A stretch of 49,759 nucleotides of DNA from NCBI GenBank assembly GCA_016926205.1, contig JAFGPB010000067.1, forward strand, positions 1-49,759, in the 5' to 3' direction. This document shows positions 35,369 through 40,334 of this stretch, piece by piece. Made by a program: the position numbers and the translations under genes. Every line of letters begins with the position of its first letter. Within the stretch, counting starts at the first letter, position 1. The notes beneath the pieces were generated by a model. That model was not told the origin of the DNA and did no database searches. It saw only the letters and a program-made list of their open reading frames with translations. The DNA is from Bacteroidales bacterium. Its GTDB lineage: Bacteria; Bacteroidota; Bacteroidia; Bacteroidales; UBA10428.

Positions 35369-35398
35369 TTGAATATATGCAAACTTTAAGTATATTTG
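35369..35398 (+). promoter_or_regulatory. Promoter of the aromatic amino-acid operon leader
   Basis: TTG (35369-35371) and a perfect -7 TATATTTG (35391-35398) are 19 bases apart; a TTTG at 35365-35368 overlaps as an alternative -33. Transcription should start near 35403, about 12 bases before the leader-peptide ATG. Confidence 0.8.
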
Positions 35399-35414
35399 CC
35401 GCAACATATCAGAA

Positions 35415-35471
35415 ATGAATACATCGACAAATAGAGCTTTTTACTTTTATTTCTTTTTTGAAGTAAAGTAA
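35415..35471 (+). CDS. Phe/Tyr-rich leader peptide of the aromatic operon attenuator
   Basis: An 18-codon reading frame encodes MNTSTNRAFYFYFFFEVK and stops at 35469-35471. Seven consecutive codons (35439-35459) are TTT, TAC, TTT, TAT, TTC, TTT, TTT, giving five Phe and two Tyr. It starts just after a consensus promoter, and its stop codon overlaps the first arm of an anti-terminator. It precedes pheA and the genes for Phe and Tyr synthesis. This matches, by analogy, the pheL leader of enteric bacteria, whose translation rate reports charged tRNA-Phe. It is too short for ordinary gene finders. Homology to any known leader cannot be shown from sequence alone. Confidence 0.82.
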   Translation: MNTSTNRAFYFYFFFEVK

Positions 35472-35518
35472 AGGGACTTTATTTGATTGATATTATGATA
35501 GATAAGAAAGGTCCCTTG
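35470..35518 (+). promoter_or_regulatory. Anti-terminator hairpin of the Phe/Tyr attenuator
   Basis: The arm AAGGGACTTT (35471-35480) can pair with AAGGTCCCTT (35508-35517) in ten pairs, including one G-U, around a 27-base loop. This consumes the 5' arm of the terminator. A ribosome paused in the aromatic codons leaves the first arm free; a ribosome at the leader stop covers it. Confidence 0.75.
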
Positions 35519-35539
35519 AAGAAAGGGACTTTTTTTTTT
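35507..35539 (+). terminator. Intrinsic terminator of the Phe/Tyr attenuator
   Basis: AAAGGTCCCTT (35507-35517) pairs with AAGGGACTTTT (35523-35533) in eleven pairs with one G-U and a five-base loop (GAAGA). The T-run extends from 35530 to 35539. The 3' arm nearly duplicates the anti-terminator arm at 35471-35480, making the two structures mutually exclusive. Confidence 0.88.
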
Positions 35540-35630
35540 AAATGTTATGAGATGACAGACGAAAAATATGCATGCATATATACAAAACCTGTAAAAACAG
35601 AAAAATGATAACAGGCTGGCAATAAATGAA

Positions 35631-35727
35631 GAACAAAAGGACGGTGTAGGAGAACAAAAACGGTTTAGGAGAACAAGGACGGTGTAGGAGAACAAAAACG
35701 GTTTAGGAGAACAAGGACGGTTTTCAC
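35631..35727 (+). repeat. Five 19-base tandem repeats between attenuator and pheA
   Basis: Units start at 35631 (21 bases), 35652, 35671, 35690 and 35709. Two versions alternate, GAACAAGGACGGTGTAGGA and GAACAAAAACGGTTTAGGA, giving a 38-base higher-order period. The array lies in the untranslated leader, ending 27 bases before the pheA start. No ORF crosses it on the plus strand. Confidence 0.93.
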
Positions 35728-35754
35728 AAAAAATGGAGGATAAATTATACCCTT

Positions 35755-36615
35755 ATGAACAAATCAGGAACCAGAGTTAAGAAGATCGCCATTCAGGGAG
35801 GATATGGCGCATTTCATGAGCTTGCCGCCAACGCATATTTTGAGAATGAAAATATAGAGATCGTACCCCGGAACACGTTCAAGGACCTGTTCAAGGCGCT
35901 GAAATCAGGTCAGGTTGACTACGGAATCACGGCGATAGAAAATTCCATTGCAGGCAGCATCCTACCAAACTATACGCTTCTGCTCGAGTCACACCTCAAG
36001 ATTGTCGGTGAGATTTACCTTCGCATCAGACAGAACCTGGTGGCACTGCCCGGACAAACCATCAGCGACATTGTGGAAGTGCACTCACATCCCATGGCTT
36101 TCCTGCAATGCCAGCAGTTCTTTGACGACTATCCGCACTTACGGCTTATTGACAGTGCAGATACCGCGCTCAGCGCAAAAGAGATCTCTGAAAAGAATCT
36201 GAAGGGTGTGGCAGCCATTTCTTCATCAGAGGCAGCAGCCAAATACAACCTTGAAGTAATCGCAGACGGCATCGAGACAAACCGGATGAATTACACCCGT
36301 TTTCTGATCCTCGAAGGGATCAATGGCAATGCTCCTGAGACACAATATGTCAACAAGGCATCGCTGACCTTTGCCCTTGCGCATAAAATAGGCTGCCTTT
36401 CAAAGGTGTTGTCCATCCTCTCCTACTACGAGATCAACCTGGCAAAGGTGCAGTCCATGCCTATTATCGGAAAGGACTGGGAATATCAGTTCTATGTGGA
36501 TGTCGAAATTGACAACTACTATTTTTACAAACAGGCCATTGAAGCCATCAGGCCGTTCACGCAGGATCTGCAGGTCCTCGGTGAATACACGAAAGGTAAA
36601 ACCATAACGGAATAG
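35755..36615 (+). CDS. pheA: Prephenate dehydratase
   Basis: PheA converts prephenate to phenylpyruvate, the committed step to phenylalanine. The 286-residue protein has the periplasmic-binding-like catalytic fold (about 9-185), with TAIENSIAGSI (59-69) and the catalytic Thr181 in NYTRFLILE. A C-terminal ACT domain (about 203-280) has GCLSKVLSIL in place of the GALxxxL effector motif and LAKVQSMPI in place of ESRP, so Phe feedback binding may be altered. It lacks a fused chorismate mutase, which is on the next gene instead. It is the first gene of the five-gene operon behind the Phe/Tyr attenuator. A GGAGGA lies 14 bases before the ATG. Confidence 0.95.
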   Translation: MNKSGTRVKKIAIQGGYGAFHELAANAYFENENIEIVPRNTFKDLFKALKSGQVDYGITAIENSIAGSILPNYTLLLESHLKIVGEIYLRIRQNLVALPGQTISDIVEVHSHPMAFLQCQQFFDDYPHLRLIDSADTALSAKEISEKNLKGVAAISSSEAAAKYNLEVIADGIETNRMNYTRFLILEGINGNAPETQYVNKASLTFALAHKIGCLSKVLSILSYYEINLAKVQSMPIIGKDWEYQFYVDVEIDNYYFYKQAIEAIRPFTQDLQVLGEYTKGKTITE

Positions 36616-36617
36616 TC

Positions 36618-37703
36618 ATGACAGTAAATTTAATGCTTGAACCGTTCACGTTCGAAGGAGTTCCTTCAGAACGACCCCTGCTTCTGGCAGGTCCGTGCAG
36701 CGCTGAAAGTGAGGAACAGATAATGAGCGTTGCGGCACAGGTAAAAGAAATGGGGATCCATATATTCAGGGCCGGATTATGGAAACCGCGTACGCGTCCG
36801 AACACCTTTGAAGGCGTCGGTAAAACGGGACTGCCCTGGCTCAAAAGAATAAAAGAAGAGCTGGGCCTGTATGTTGCCATTGAAGTGGCAAATGTCAAAC
36901 ATGTGTATGAAGCCCTTAAACATGGGATCGACATCATATGGCTGGGTGCAAGGACCACGGCAAATCCGTTTGCCGTCCAGGAGATAGCCGATGCGCTTCA
37001 GGGGGTCGACATTCCCGTCATGGTGAAGAATCCTGTCAGTCCGGATGTGGAATTGTGGATCGGTGCCATCGAGAGGATCAACCGGGCCGGTATCAGCAAA
37101 CTGGCAGCTGTCCACCGGGGATTCTCCGCATACGGCAGAACGTTGTACCGCAACAATCCCGAGTGGGAAATTCCCATTGAGCTGAAACGGCTGATCCCTG
37201 ACCTGCCCATCATCACTGATCCCAGCCACATATGCGGCAACAGGGAACTCCTTTTTGAAGTATCACAGAAAGCCATGGACCTTGAATTTTCGGGACTGAT
37301 GATCGAAACGCACTGTACTCCGGACCAGGCACTCAGCGATGCCCAGCAGCAGATCACTCCGGAGCAGCTGAAAAGGCTTTTATCACGACTAGTACTCAGG
37401 AAACCAGACATTCAAAACCAGATGTTATTGTCCACACTGGAAGAACTTCGCGACCAGATCGACCATTACGATGACAAACTGATGGAGATCCTGGAACTCC
37501 GCATGCAGGTTGCGGAAAAGATCGGTGAATACAAAAAACAGAACAACATCACGATCCTGCAGACCAGCCGCTGGGATGAGGTGCTGCGTTCGCGCATCGA
37601 GGACGGCAAAAAGAAAGGACTGGACGAAGAATTCATCATTAAAGTCTTCAGGGCCATCCACGAGGAATCCATCAACCACCAGACAAGGATCATGAATGAA
37701 TGA
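36618..37703 (+). CDS. DAHP synthase fused to AroQ-type chorismate mutase
   Basis: This bifunctional 361-residue protein catalyses the first step of the shikimate pathway and, at its C-terminus, the chorismate-to-prephenate branch step. The DAHP synthase part (about 1-265) is of the KDO8P-synthase-like class: LLAGPCSAES, FRAGLWKPRTRPNTFEGVG, GARTTANPFAVQEIAD and DPSHICGNRELL carry the phosphoenolpyruvate and metal sites. The chorismate mutase part (about 273-361) shows LRDQIDHYDDKLMEILELRMQVAEKI and a conserved arginine pattern. The gene starts two bases after pheA. The mutase supplies prephenate to both PheA and TyrA of the same operon. Its stop lies in an ATGA repeat that also carries the aroB start. 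Confidence 0.94.
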   Translation: MTVNLMLEPFTFEGVPSERPLLLAGPCSAESEEQIMSVAAQVKEMGIHIFRAGLWKPRTRPNTFEGVGKTGLPWLKRIKEELGLYVAIEVANVKHVYEALKHGIDIIWLGARTTANPFAVQEIADALQGVDIPVMVKNPVSPDVELWIGAIERINRAGISKLAAVHRGFSAYGRTLYRNNPEWEIPIELKRLIPDLPIITDPSHICGNRELLFEVSQKAMDLEFSGLMIETHCTPDQALSDAQQQITPEQLKRLLSRLVLRKPDIQNQMLLSTLEELRDQIDHYDDKLMEILELRMQVAEKIGEYKKQNNITILQTSRWDEVLRSRIEDGKKKGLDEEFIIKVFRAIHEESINHQTRIMNE

Positions 37704-37711
37704 ATGAATGA
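37692..37711 (+). repeat. Five ATGA units at the DAHP synthase-mutase/aroB junction
   Basis: ATGA is repeated five times without interruption. The stop of the upstream gene (37701-37703) and the aroB start codon (37708-37710) both lie inside it, so any change in copy number alters the stop-to-start geometry. Confidence 0.9.
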
Positions 37712-38745
37712 AGACAGTGACCATTTCGACTGATGCAAAAACCTCCAGGATCCTCATCGGAGAAAGACTCGGGAACCTGAAGAATTACCTTCCTCCGGGC
37801 AGAGCCATCATCATCACCGATGAGAACATCCTTGAATATTACGGGGATGTATTGCCGGATCTTCCCGTTGTGGTCATGGGTCAGGGTGAAAAAAGCAAAA
37901 CCCTTGAGACACTTCATGACATTTTTGACAAGCTGCTGGAATATGAAGCGGACCGGAGCACCTTCATCATCGGTATCGGAGGAGGCATCGTCTGTGATGT
38001 GGCCGGGTTCGCTGCTTCCATCTATATGCGTGGACTTCGCTTCGGATTTGTATCCACCACCCTGTTGTCGCAGGTCGATGCCAGCGTTGGCGGAAAGAAC
38101 GGCGTGAACTTCCGGAGGTACAAGAATATGATCGGCTCGTTCAGTCAGCCCGAATTTATCATTTGTGACGATCAGATGCTCGCCACCCTTGATCCGGTTG
38201 AGTTCAGGGCCGGTTTTGCCGAAATTGTCAAGGCAGCTGCGATCAGGGATGCATCCCTGTTTGAATACATGGAGAACAATTTCAAAGCAGCGCTTGAAAT
38301 GGATGGTCCCACCCTCGAAAAACTGATATATGAATCGGTCCGCATCAAAGCCTCGGTTGTCGAAAAGGATGAAAAGGAAAAAGGGGAACGGCGGAAACTG
38401 AACTTCGGTCATACTTTCGCACATGCGATTGAAAACCTGACAGACATGTTGCACGGAGAGGCAGTGAGTATCGGCATGATGCTTGCAGCGCGTCTTTCAG
38501 AAAAGCTGGGTTTCCTTGAAGGAACTGCAGTAATCCGCATTGAGCAATTGCTCAGGAACTTTGCATTACCAGTCAGTTTGAATCTGGACCCGGATCAGGT
38601 GATCAACACTATGAAAAAGGACAAGAAACGTGAGGGAGATGCGATTCACATGGTGTTGCTTGACCGGATCGGATATGCATTTACACATGAAATTGATTAT
38701 AAACAATTAGAAGGATTGTTGTATGATTTGTGTCAGTATCGGTGA
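37708..38745 (+). CDS. aroB: 3-dehydroquinate synthase
   Basis: AroB cyclises DAHP to 3-dehydroquinate, the second shikimate step. The 345-residue protein shows the NAD-binding GQGEKSKTLETL and IGIGGGIVCDVAGFAASIYMRG region, then TTLLSQVDASVGGKNGVNF. The zinc-ligand segments FRAGFAEIVKAAAI and LNFGHTFAHAIE follow. The start is fixed by an in-frame TGA directly upstream. It begins four bases after the preceding stop and its end overlaps aroD by 23 bases, so translation is tightly coupled. Confidence 0.95.
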   Translation: MKTVTISTDAKTSRILIGERLGNLKNYLPPGRAIIITDENILEYYGDVLPDLPVVVMGQGEKSKTLETLHDIFDKLLEYEADRSTFIIGIGGGIVCDVAGFAASIYMRGLRFGFVSTTLLSQVDASVGGKNGVNFRRYKNMIGSFSQPEFIICDDQMLATLDPVEFRAGFAEIVKAAAIRDASLFEYMENNFKAALEMDGPTLEKLIYESVRIKASVVEKDEKEKGERRKLNFGHTFAHAIENLTDMLHGEAVSIGMMLAARLSEKLGFLEGTAVIRIEQLLRNFALPVSLNLDPDQVINTMKKDKKREGDAIHMVLLDRIGYAFTHEIDYKQLEGLLYDLCQYR

Positions 38746-39361
38746 AAAAAACCTGGAAATATGTCTGGCATATCTGGAAAAGCCCGAGATTGCCGAGATC
38801 CGTCTGGACCTGACGGAATTTTCAGATGCGGAAACAGAGCAGGTATTTGCCTTGAAGAAAAAACTGATCGCCACCTGCCGTCCCGGAAAGTACAGTGATG
38901 ATCAGCGCACCCACAGGCTAAAAACCGCGATAAAGGCCGGGGCATCCATTGTCGATATTGAATATGAATCACCTGTTGCCTACCGGAAAGAATTGATGGA
39001 ATATGCCCGTGAATGCCATTGTGATGTGATGATATCCTATCACAATTTCGAATACACGCCTCCCCTTCAGGATCTCGAGAAGATCATGCAGGATTGTTTC
39101 GACATGGGTGCCAACATAGCCAAGATTGCCACCATGGTCAATATGAACCGGGACAATTCCAAGATCCTTTCCCTCTATAAAGCTCCCGGCCGGCTGGTTG
39201 CCATAGGAATGGGAGAGCTCGGCATAATCAGCAGGATCGTCGCTCCCTTCCTGGGCGCTGAATTCACTTATGCCTCACCGGATGAGGGTGAGCCGACAGC
39301 TCCCGGACAGATCAGGTTCTCCAGGCTCAATGATTTCATTATGAAAATACAGGAAATATAA
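38723..39361 (+). CDS. aroD: 3-dehydroquinate dehydratase, type I
   Basis: AroD makes 3-dehydroshikimate. The 212-residue protein is the type I, Schiff-base-forming enzyme. Lys134 (ANIAKIATMVN) is the imine lysine, His107 (ISYHNF) the general base, and Glu25 with Arg27 (EIRLDL) bind the substrate. The later GMGELGIISRIVAPFLG and PTAPGQIRFSRL blocks complete the site. It overlaps the end of aroB by 23 bases. The later shikimate enzymes (AroE, AroK, AroA, AroC) are not in this operon. Confidence 0.95.
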   Translation: MICVSIGEKNLEICLAYLEKPEIAEIRLDLTEFSDAETEQVFALKKKLIATCRPGKYSDDQRTHRLKTAIKAGASIVDIEYESPVAYRKELMEYARECHCDVMISYHNFEYTPPLQDLEKIMQDCFDMGANIAKIATMVNMNRDNSKILSLYKAPGRLVAIGMGELGIISRIVAPFLGAEFTYASPDEGEPTAPGQIRFSRLNDFIMKIQEI

Positions 39362-39371
39362 AACTATCGCA

Positions 39372-40142
39372 ATGAAAATACTGGTCGTGGGCGCAGGAAA
39401 AATGGGATCATGGTTCATTGAATCCCTGTGCCTCGATTATGAAGTGGCTGCTTTTGACAGGGACCTGACACGAATGCGTTATCTGTTCAACACGCATAAG
39501 CTCTTATCCCGCGAAGAGATCCGGGAATATGAGCCTGAAATGGTCATTAATGCTGTGAACCTTGAAAAAACACGGGACGTTTTCCTTGAATTGCTGCCGT
39601 TTCTGAAAGAGGACTGCATCCTTGCCGACATCACCTCGGTTAAGAACGGTCTGGGTGATTTTTACAGGGAAACCGGACGCAGGTTCGTTTCAACCCATCC
39701 CATGTTCGGTCCGACATTTGCAAATATCAAGGATTTGGCCGGTCAAAGTGCCATCATCATCAGGGAATCCGACGAGGAAGGCAAGGTTTTTTTCAGGCAC
39801 TTCTATAAGTCCTTTAACCTGAACATTTTCGATTACACCTTTCTGGAACACGACCAGACCATCGCCTATTCACTGGCCACGCCCTTCGCTTCCACGCTTG
39901 TCTTTGCCTCCTGTATGAAAAAGCAGGAAGCCCCGGGTACCACCTTCCGGAAACACCATGAGATCGCAAAAGGATTGCTGACGGAGGACGACTTTCTGCT
40001 CTCCGAAATCATGTTCAGTCCTTTCGCCCTTGAACAGCTTGAAAAGATCGGTGACAAACTGGAGAACCTGGAGGAGATCATCAAAGCCAAAGACATCCAC
40101 AAAATGCGGGAGTTTCTGGCTGAAATCCGGAAAAACATCTGA
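39372..40142 (+). CDS. tyrA: Prephenate dehydrogenase
   Basis: TyrA oxidatively decarboxylates prephenate to 4-hydroxyphenylpyruvate, the tyrosine precursor. The 256-residue protein starts with the dinucleotide fold VVGAGKMGSWF (5-15). The catalytic His109 is in STHPMFGPTF, and the helical dimerisation domain follows (EHDQTIAYSLATPF). It lacks fused mutase and ACT domains. It is the last gene of the operon, ten bases after aroD. Its presence beside pheA explains the mixed Phe and Tyr codons of the leader peptide. Confidence 0.93.
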   Translation: MKILVVGAGKMGSWFIESLCLDYEVAAFDRDLTRMRYLFNTHKLLSREEIREYEPEMVINAVNLEKTRDVFLELLPFLKEDCILADITSVKNGLGDFYRETGRRFVSTHPMFGPTFANIKDLAGQSAIIIRESDEEGKVFFRHFYKSFNLNIFDYTFLEHDQTIAYSLATPFASTLVFASCMKKQEAPGTTFRKHHEIAKGLLTEDDFLLSEIMFSPFALEQLEKIGDKLENLEEIIKAKDIHKMREFLAEIRKNI

Positions 40143-40207: not shown

Positions 40208-40231
40208 TATTGATGGTTTTGTTGTCAACCC

Positions 40232-40334
40232 TTTTGATAATAATCTATAATATATCTTACTGACAATAGTCTATTATATATCTCACTGACAATGGTCTAT
40301 TATAATCTTATTGACAATGGTCTATAATATATCT
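40232..40334. repeat. Four 25-26 base tandem repeats, one inside the TPR gene's end
   Basis: Units occupy 40232-40257, 40258-40283, 40284-40308 and 40309-40334. Each contains a form of TGACAATGGTCTATAATATA. The last unit encodes the final codons of the minus-strand TPR gene (ending IIDHCQ); the others lie beyond its stop, as if the gene's end had been duplicated outwards. Confidence 0.9.

Follow-up and report, generated by a model that had tools for sequence, protein, structure and literature searches.

Among the closest described counterparts of the system analyzed here is the enterobacterial pheL-pheA attenuator (RF01859), in which a Phe-rich leader peptide precedes pheA, protector, antiterminator, and terminator structures are alternatives to one another, and the RNA arms lie near the leader stop codon. 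Attenuators of the ilvGMEDA type have a single leader that counts several related amino acids with shared pathway enzymes; those amino acids are branched-chain there and aromatic in the system described below. The classical attenuation surveys of Vitreschak and colleagues (2004) and Lopatovskaya and colleagues (2010) reportedly may include Bacteroidetes cases. The nearest description we found comes from the phylum itself: the main text of a transcriptomic study of Flavobacterium psychrophilum describes a structured 5′ element ahead of pheA and another ahead of hisG, the former conserved in Flavobacteriaceae and without an Rfam match, and mentions strong clues that point to leader-peptide attenuation in front of amino-acid operons (PMC9723704). 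The pheA element shares its phylum, its gene, and a structured 5′ region with ours, while that main text gives no leader sequence, no mechanism for pheA, and no range beyond Flavobacteriaceae (PMC9723704). A map of Bacteroides thetaiotaomicron refers in general terms to long 5′ UTRs that contain short, leader-like ORFs (PMC7366714).

Here we analyze a 49,759-nt stretch of a Bacteroidales genome (the window), in which a promoter, a short ORF, and a set of complementary RNA segments precede pheA. Judged from its sequence and that of its relatives, this region is very likely a ribosome-mediated transcription attenuator that would sense charged tRNA-Phe and tRNA-Tyr jointly upstream of the pheA operon. 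Its working principle is that of the pheL and trpL attenuators. Unlike enterobacterial pheL, it would also count Tyr, and in a third of relatives Trp as well; its operon serves both terminal branches and includes DAHP synthase, the host belongs to another phylum, and many relatives carry two attenuators in series. A first-pass annotation of the window knew of no such attenuator in Bacteroidota. This view needs qualifying in light of the pheA 5′ element and the attenuation clues in the main text on F. psychrophilum (PMC9723704). In the literature searched, which lay largely outside subscription journals, we found no description of a leader that mixes Phe, Tyr, and Trp codons, of its presence throughout the class, of the spacing rule, or of tandem copies. 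The mechanism is known and pheL-like; what is new is the counting of Phe and Tyr (and sometimes Trp), the class-wide range, the spacing law, and the tandem copies.

Results

The pheA leader region carries aromatic codons and alternative RNA arms

The features of the locus are collected in Table 1. The leader ORF contains Phe and Tyr as its aromatic residues, without Trp, and lacks a strong Shine-Dalgarno sequence, as is usual in Bacteroidota. Upstream of it, a promoter scan returns a match at 35369-35396. The TTG-N19-TATATTTG arrangement is of the Bacteroidota type because TATATTTG fits TAnnTTTG, given as the −7 box consensus of the phylum in the main text of the F. psychrophilum study (PMC9723704). 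Of 120 loci in relatives, 82 have TAnnTTTG in the 65 nt ahead of their first leader, where 4.7 would be expected, and the motif typically starts 28 nt before the leader ATG. This placement indicates that the leader is probably the first ORF on the transcript, as the mechanism needs.

Table 1 Features of the pheA leader region and operon in the window
Feature	Position	Strand	Details and evidence
Promoter	35369-35398	+	TTG 35369-35371, 19 nt, TATATTTG 35391-35398; Bacteroidota TAnnTTTG type; sequence
Leader ORF	35415-35471	+	MNTSTNRAFYFYFFFEVK; 18 codons, ATG 35415-35417, stop TAA 35469-35471; sequence
Protector hairpin	~35423-35491	+	Control-codon region pairs with arm 1 when the ribosome is absent; MFE structure
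Control codons F-Y-F-Y-F-F-F	35439-35459	+	Sequence; Phe/Tyr dominate the equivalent positions in 140 units
Arm 1, antiterminator 5′ strand	35471-35480	+	AAGGGACUUU; adjoins the leader stop codon, A35470 may add; folding
Arm 2, common to antiterminator and terminator	35508-35517	+	AAGGUCCCUU; folding, arm tests in relatives
Arm 3, terminator 3′ strand	35523-35536	+	Folding
T-run, intrinsic terminator	35530-35539	+	Sequence
pheA, prephenate dehydratase, first controlled gene	35755-36615	+	PF00800, 1.9e-56
DAHP synthase-chorismate mutase fusion (aroG/CM)	36618-37703	+	PF00793 and PF01817
aroB, 3-dehydroquinate synthase	37708-38745	+	TIGR01357 above cut-off
aroD, type I 3-dehydroquinate dehydratase	38723-39361	+	PF01487
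tyrA, prephenate dehydrogenase	39372-40142	+	PF02153

Arm 2 can pair either with arm 1 or, inside the terminator hairpin, with 35523-35532. The terminator hairpin has 14 bp, formed by 35504-35517 and 35523-35536, and T residues continue from it to 35539; its folding energy is −16.9 kcal/mol, whereas the antiterminator formed by arms 1 and 2 reaches about −12 kcal/mol by itself. A generic terminator scan of the window did not list the 35504-35539 terminator on the forward strand, probably because its stem continues into the T-run. The whole leader RNA folds better than shuffled versions (z = −7.8). Its protector hairpin buries arm 1, which makes the layout the classic one of four segments rather than three. 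Pairing probabilities lend moderate support to a corresponding hairpin in relatives, where arm 1 pairs with its own leader at a mean predicted probability of 0.76, compared to 0.58 with shuffled leaders.

Simulated positions of the ribosome select between these structures. With RNA polymerase placed just before arm 3 and the ribosome on the last Phe codon, arms 1 and 2 are predicted to pair (−11.8 kcal/mol). A ribosome at the stop codon leaves the terminator as the one structure able to form (−17.3 kcal/mol).

Much of this had been proposed in the first-pass annotation. The consensus promoter named there is present as the Bacteroidota type, and the 18-codon ORF with its FYFYFFF stretch proved exact in its coordinates on re-reading of the sequence. 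Sequence and folding also agree with an overlap of the stop codon and arm 1, with the complementarity of arm 2 to both arms 1 and 3, and with a T-run ending at 35539. The three-arm layout stands as far as the arms themselves are concerned, and the protector hairpin adds a fourth segment to it.

The operon serves both terminal branches of aromatic synthesis

Domain searches identify the five genes downstream of the leader as pheA, a DAHP synthase-chorismate mutase fusion, aroB, aroD, and tyrA, in accord with the earlier proposal that the operon feeds both branches as well as DAHP synthase. Phe and Tyr codons in the leader, with or without Trp, suit an operon in which both terminal branches are encoded together with DAHP synthase, the entry enzyme. 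Several strong promoter-like sites lie on both strands downstream of tyrA (40222-40292), one of which, TTGTCA-N18-TATAAT, has 11/12 matches.

In the window, the terminator is followed by 215 nt up to the pheA start. The spacer contains a perfect 38-bp tandem repeat (35637-35721, 2.2 copies, sub-units of ~19 bp), and in the nearest relative (L003) the distance from leader to pheA is ~75 nt shorter (208 vs 283 nt). The length of the spacer bears on whether the leader ORF could act on translation, through reinitiation or coupling to pheA, instead of on transcription. Short leader ORFs near genes can supply ribosomes to those genes, and a leader-ORF effect on translation in Bacteroidetes was described at ~11-14 nt (PMC4833913). 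Against that distance stand the 283 nt between leader stop and pheA in the window (roughly 50-280 nt in relatives) and the T-run terminator that lies in between, and we give an action on translation hardly any probability.

Leader and terminator are conserved across the class

We gathered pheA loci by PheA similarity alone, without using the leader as a criterion, and obtained 141 unique loci from the family, order, and class. Nearly all of those with names come from Bacteroidales, Bacteroidetes, and Bacteroidota MAGs, and we infer the class in question to be Bacteroidia. A leader was scored as a short ORF with at least five Phe/Tyr/Trp in eight codons, with a terminator sought within reach. 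An aromatic-rich leader ORF is found in 138/141 loci and a leader plus terminator in 121/141. Dinucleotide shuffles of the same loci yield 12-25 leaders and 0-1 leader-terminator pairs, and their reverse strands 14 and 1, respectively. In 17 loci the leader is present while the strict terminator rule is unmet. Within the family, no genome that encodes pheA lacks the leader, which is present at 21 loci and also at the G008 contig end. Upstream of pheA, the relatives conserve the aromatic leaders along with the co-varying arms and ribosome-scale spacing described below.

Further loci of the same class carry the leader system in 18 of 20 cases, compared to 4 of 40 loci outside the class, plus L146. 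These out-of-class loci (L168, L169, L171, L172, and L146) combine a class-type leader with a class-type PheA N-terminus (IQG...), a combination suggesting that the element moves along with its operon; either transfer or a deeper ancestry of operon and attenuator is possible. A sequence model run on 23 family genomes gives one strong match per genome, at the pheA leader, and no further copies, the secondary matches being at chance level. Inspection of five secondary loci revealed a real leader only at the G008 contig end, which fits the otherwise truncated pheA of that genome.

Arm 1 co-varies with arm 2 and keeps its distance from the control codons

To compare the arms among relatives, we took 140 leader-terminator units and looked, in the segment from the last aromatic codon to the terminator, for the sequence that pairs best with the terminator 5′ strand. 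The resulting arm 1:arm 2 duplex is significant against shuffles (p ≤ 0.05) in 116/140 units. Arms from the same locus pair at a mean of −11.5 kcal/mol, as opposed to −7.85 kcal/mol when arms are swapped among loci, and none of 5000 permutations falls below −8.45 kcal/mol. The arms co-vary through GCG, CGC, AUA, and UAU triples, a table that is biased toward pairing since its register was chosen by folding; the swap, shuffle, and spacing tests, not the triple table, carry the weight of the co-variation case. By median energy, terminators exceed antiterminators in stability (−15.3 vs −11.2 kcal/mol, a gap of typically ~4 kcal/mol), so that the switch would depend on the order of synthesis, as in known attenuators.

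The position of arm 1 follows the codons. Measured from the first base of the last aromatic codon, its 5′ end lies at a median of 13 nt (IQR 12-16), the value also found in the window when counted from the last Phe codon. Arm 1 starts at 9-19 nt in 129/140 units, compared to 37/137 shuffled regions. Relative to the stop codon, by contrast, it lies anywhere from −32 to +13 nt. The constant spacing from codon to arm 1 matches the need of a ribosome stalled on the control codons, whose leading edge would stop just short of that arm.

A plain small gene would need neither arm 1, nor its swap-tested match to arm 2, nor a constant spacing of 12-16 nt. These observations weigh against a constitutive terminator that ends a short independent RNA, from an sRNA or small membrane protein gene, with pheA transcribed from its own downstream promoter. 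Such an arrangement would suit a leader with its own promoter and terminator, the 215 nt before pheA in the window, and a short product that is very hydrophobic. Many relatives, however, have only ~60-110 nt from leader stop to pheA, which leaves little room for a second promoter; moreover, throughout the class the leader keeps its position immediately ahead of pheA, and its amino-acid makeup mirrors what the pathway produces. We consider an independent RNA very improbable.

Leaders count Phe and Tyr, with Trp added in some relatives

Mean counts per leader in the 140 units are 5.5 for Phe, 3.2 for Tyr, and 0.3 for Trp; Tyr is present in 137/140 and Trp in 45/140. Several leaders in the window's own genus end in FYFYFWVT or similar, which adds Trp. 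The class-wide signal is aromatic, and Phe plus Tyr is its constant part. Counting of Phe and Tyr, as first proposed, holds for the codons of the window leader; the Trp codons of relatives widen the signal beyond it.

Both synonymous codons are in use for each amino acid, nothing in the region is more constant than the aromatic codons, and the arm 1 spacing tracks them. These features would be unexpected if the RNA sensed a ligand or uncharged tRNA directly, in the manner of a riboswitch or T-box, and the ORF were incidental. Riboswitches also alternate between terminator and antiterminator pairing, yet beyond the arms and the ORF no loop sequence is conserved, and no Rfam family matches the window at gathering score. 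Direct sensing is thus, in our estimate, exceedingly unlikely. None of the loci scanned against Rfam reaches the threshold of any leader family; for RF01859 (Phe_leader), relatives score at most 38.4 bits, below the 55-bit gathering threshold.

Two units were detected in 19/121 loci. This value (up to 16%) is the detector's upper estimate, since a few of the 19 are overlapping frames of one leader (e.g., L026), although one true pair (L091) was missed. Clear serial pairs are found at L031, L034, L035, L070, L091, L097, L107, L110, L112, L127, and L133. The tandem units before pheA differ in peptide and in arm sequence.

A His-rich leader precedes hisG

We also inspected other operons of the same genome. 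Upstream of hisG (L228) lies a His-rich leader ORF, MKERFPHNHNHRP, with counterparts in relatives such as MNFNGTHHHHHHQP. In 17/21 family loci (L228 and 16 others), hisG has a His-rich leader upstream, and behind the leader comes a conserved GGTTTGCA...TGCAAACC terminator, which suggests that attenuation probably controls the his operon in the family as well. A simple scan found no convincing leader at ilvB or trpE of the same genome, the trpE locus having only 520 bases upstream of the match.

Discussion

The pheA leader combines the features by which attenuators are recognized: an aromatic leader ORF, an intrinsic terminator between the leader and the first gene, a mutually exclusive antiterminator on the terminator 5′ strand with compensatory change, and a spacing at which a ribosome halted on the control codons would leave arm 1 open while one at the end of the leader would cover it. 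Comparative evidence strongly supports ribosome-mediated transcription attenuation as its mode of action. Conserved aromatic leaders, co-varying arms, and conserved spacing all point to the reading that the first-pass annotation had offered for the window.

In the proposed mechanism, RNA polymerase would start ~10 nt 5′ of the leader ATG, and a ribosome would follow it into the leader. When charged tRNA-Phe or tRNA-Tyr is scarce, the ribosome would stall in FYFYFFF with its leading edge just short of arm 1, so that a shortage of either amino acid alone would be expected to trigger read-through. The stalled ribosome would free arm 1 from the leader hairpin, and arms 1 and 2 would pair while arm 3 is still to be synthesized, which would let transcription continue into the operon. 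When both charged tRNAs are ample, the ribosome would proceed to the stop codon and cover arm 1, arms 2 and 3 would pair, and transcription in vivo would end at ~35539. Should the leader remain untranslated, the leader hairpin would sequester arm 1 and the terminator would form too.

As to the wider picture, we lean slightly toward the view that aromatic leader-peptide attenuation is an ancestral and near-universal control of aromatic operons across Bacteroidia. A single RNA device would combine the supply of Phe and Tyr, in some cases of Trp too, into one signal, and it would have been repeatedly duplicated into tandem attenuators in series that sharpen or widen the response. Our search of the literature on transcription-translation coupling in Bacteroides found nothing direct. 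If the class-wide ancestral reading is true, transcription and translation in Bacteroidota would be coupled tightly enough for ribosome-timed termination. Because such attenuation works only if the ribosome keeps pace with RNA polymerase, the leader would offer a ready reporter of coupling in this phylum. The tandem copies would serve as natural experiments on the behavior of serial attenuators, and a medically and ecologically important bacterial class would gain a concrete, testable mechanism for the control of aromatic amino-acid synthesis.
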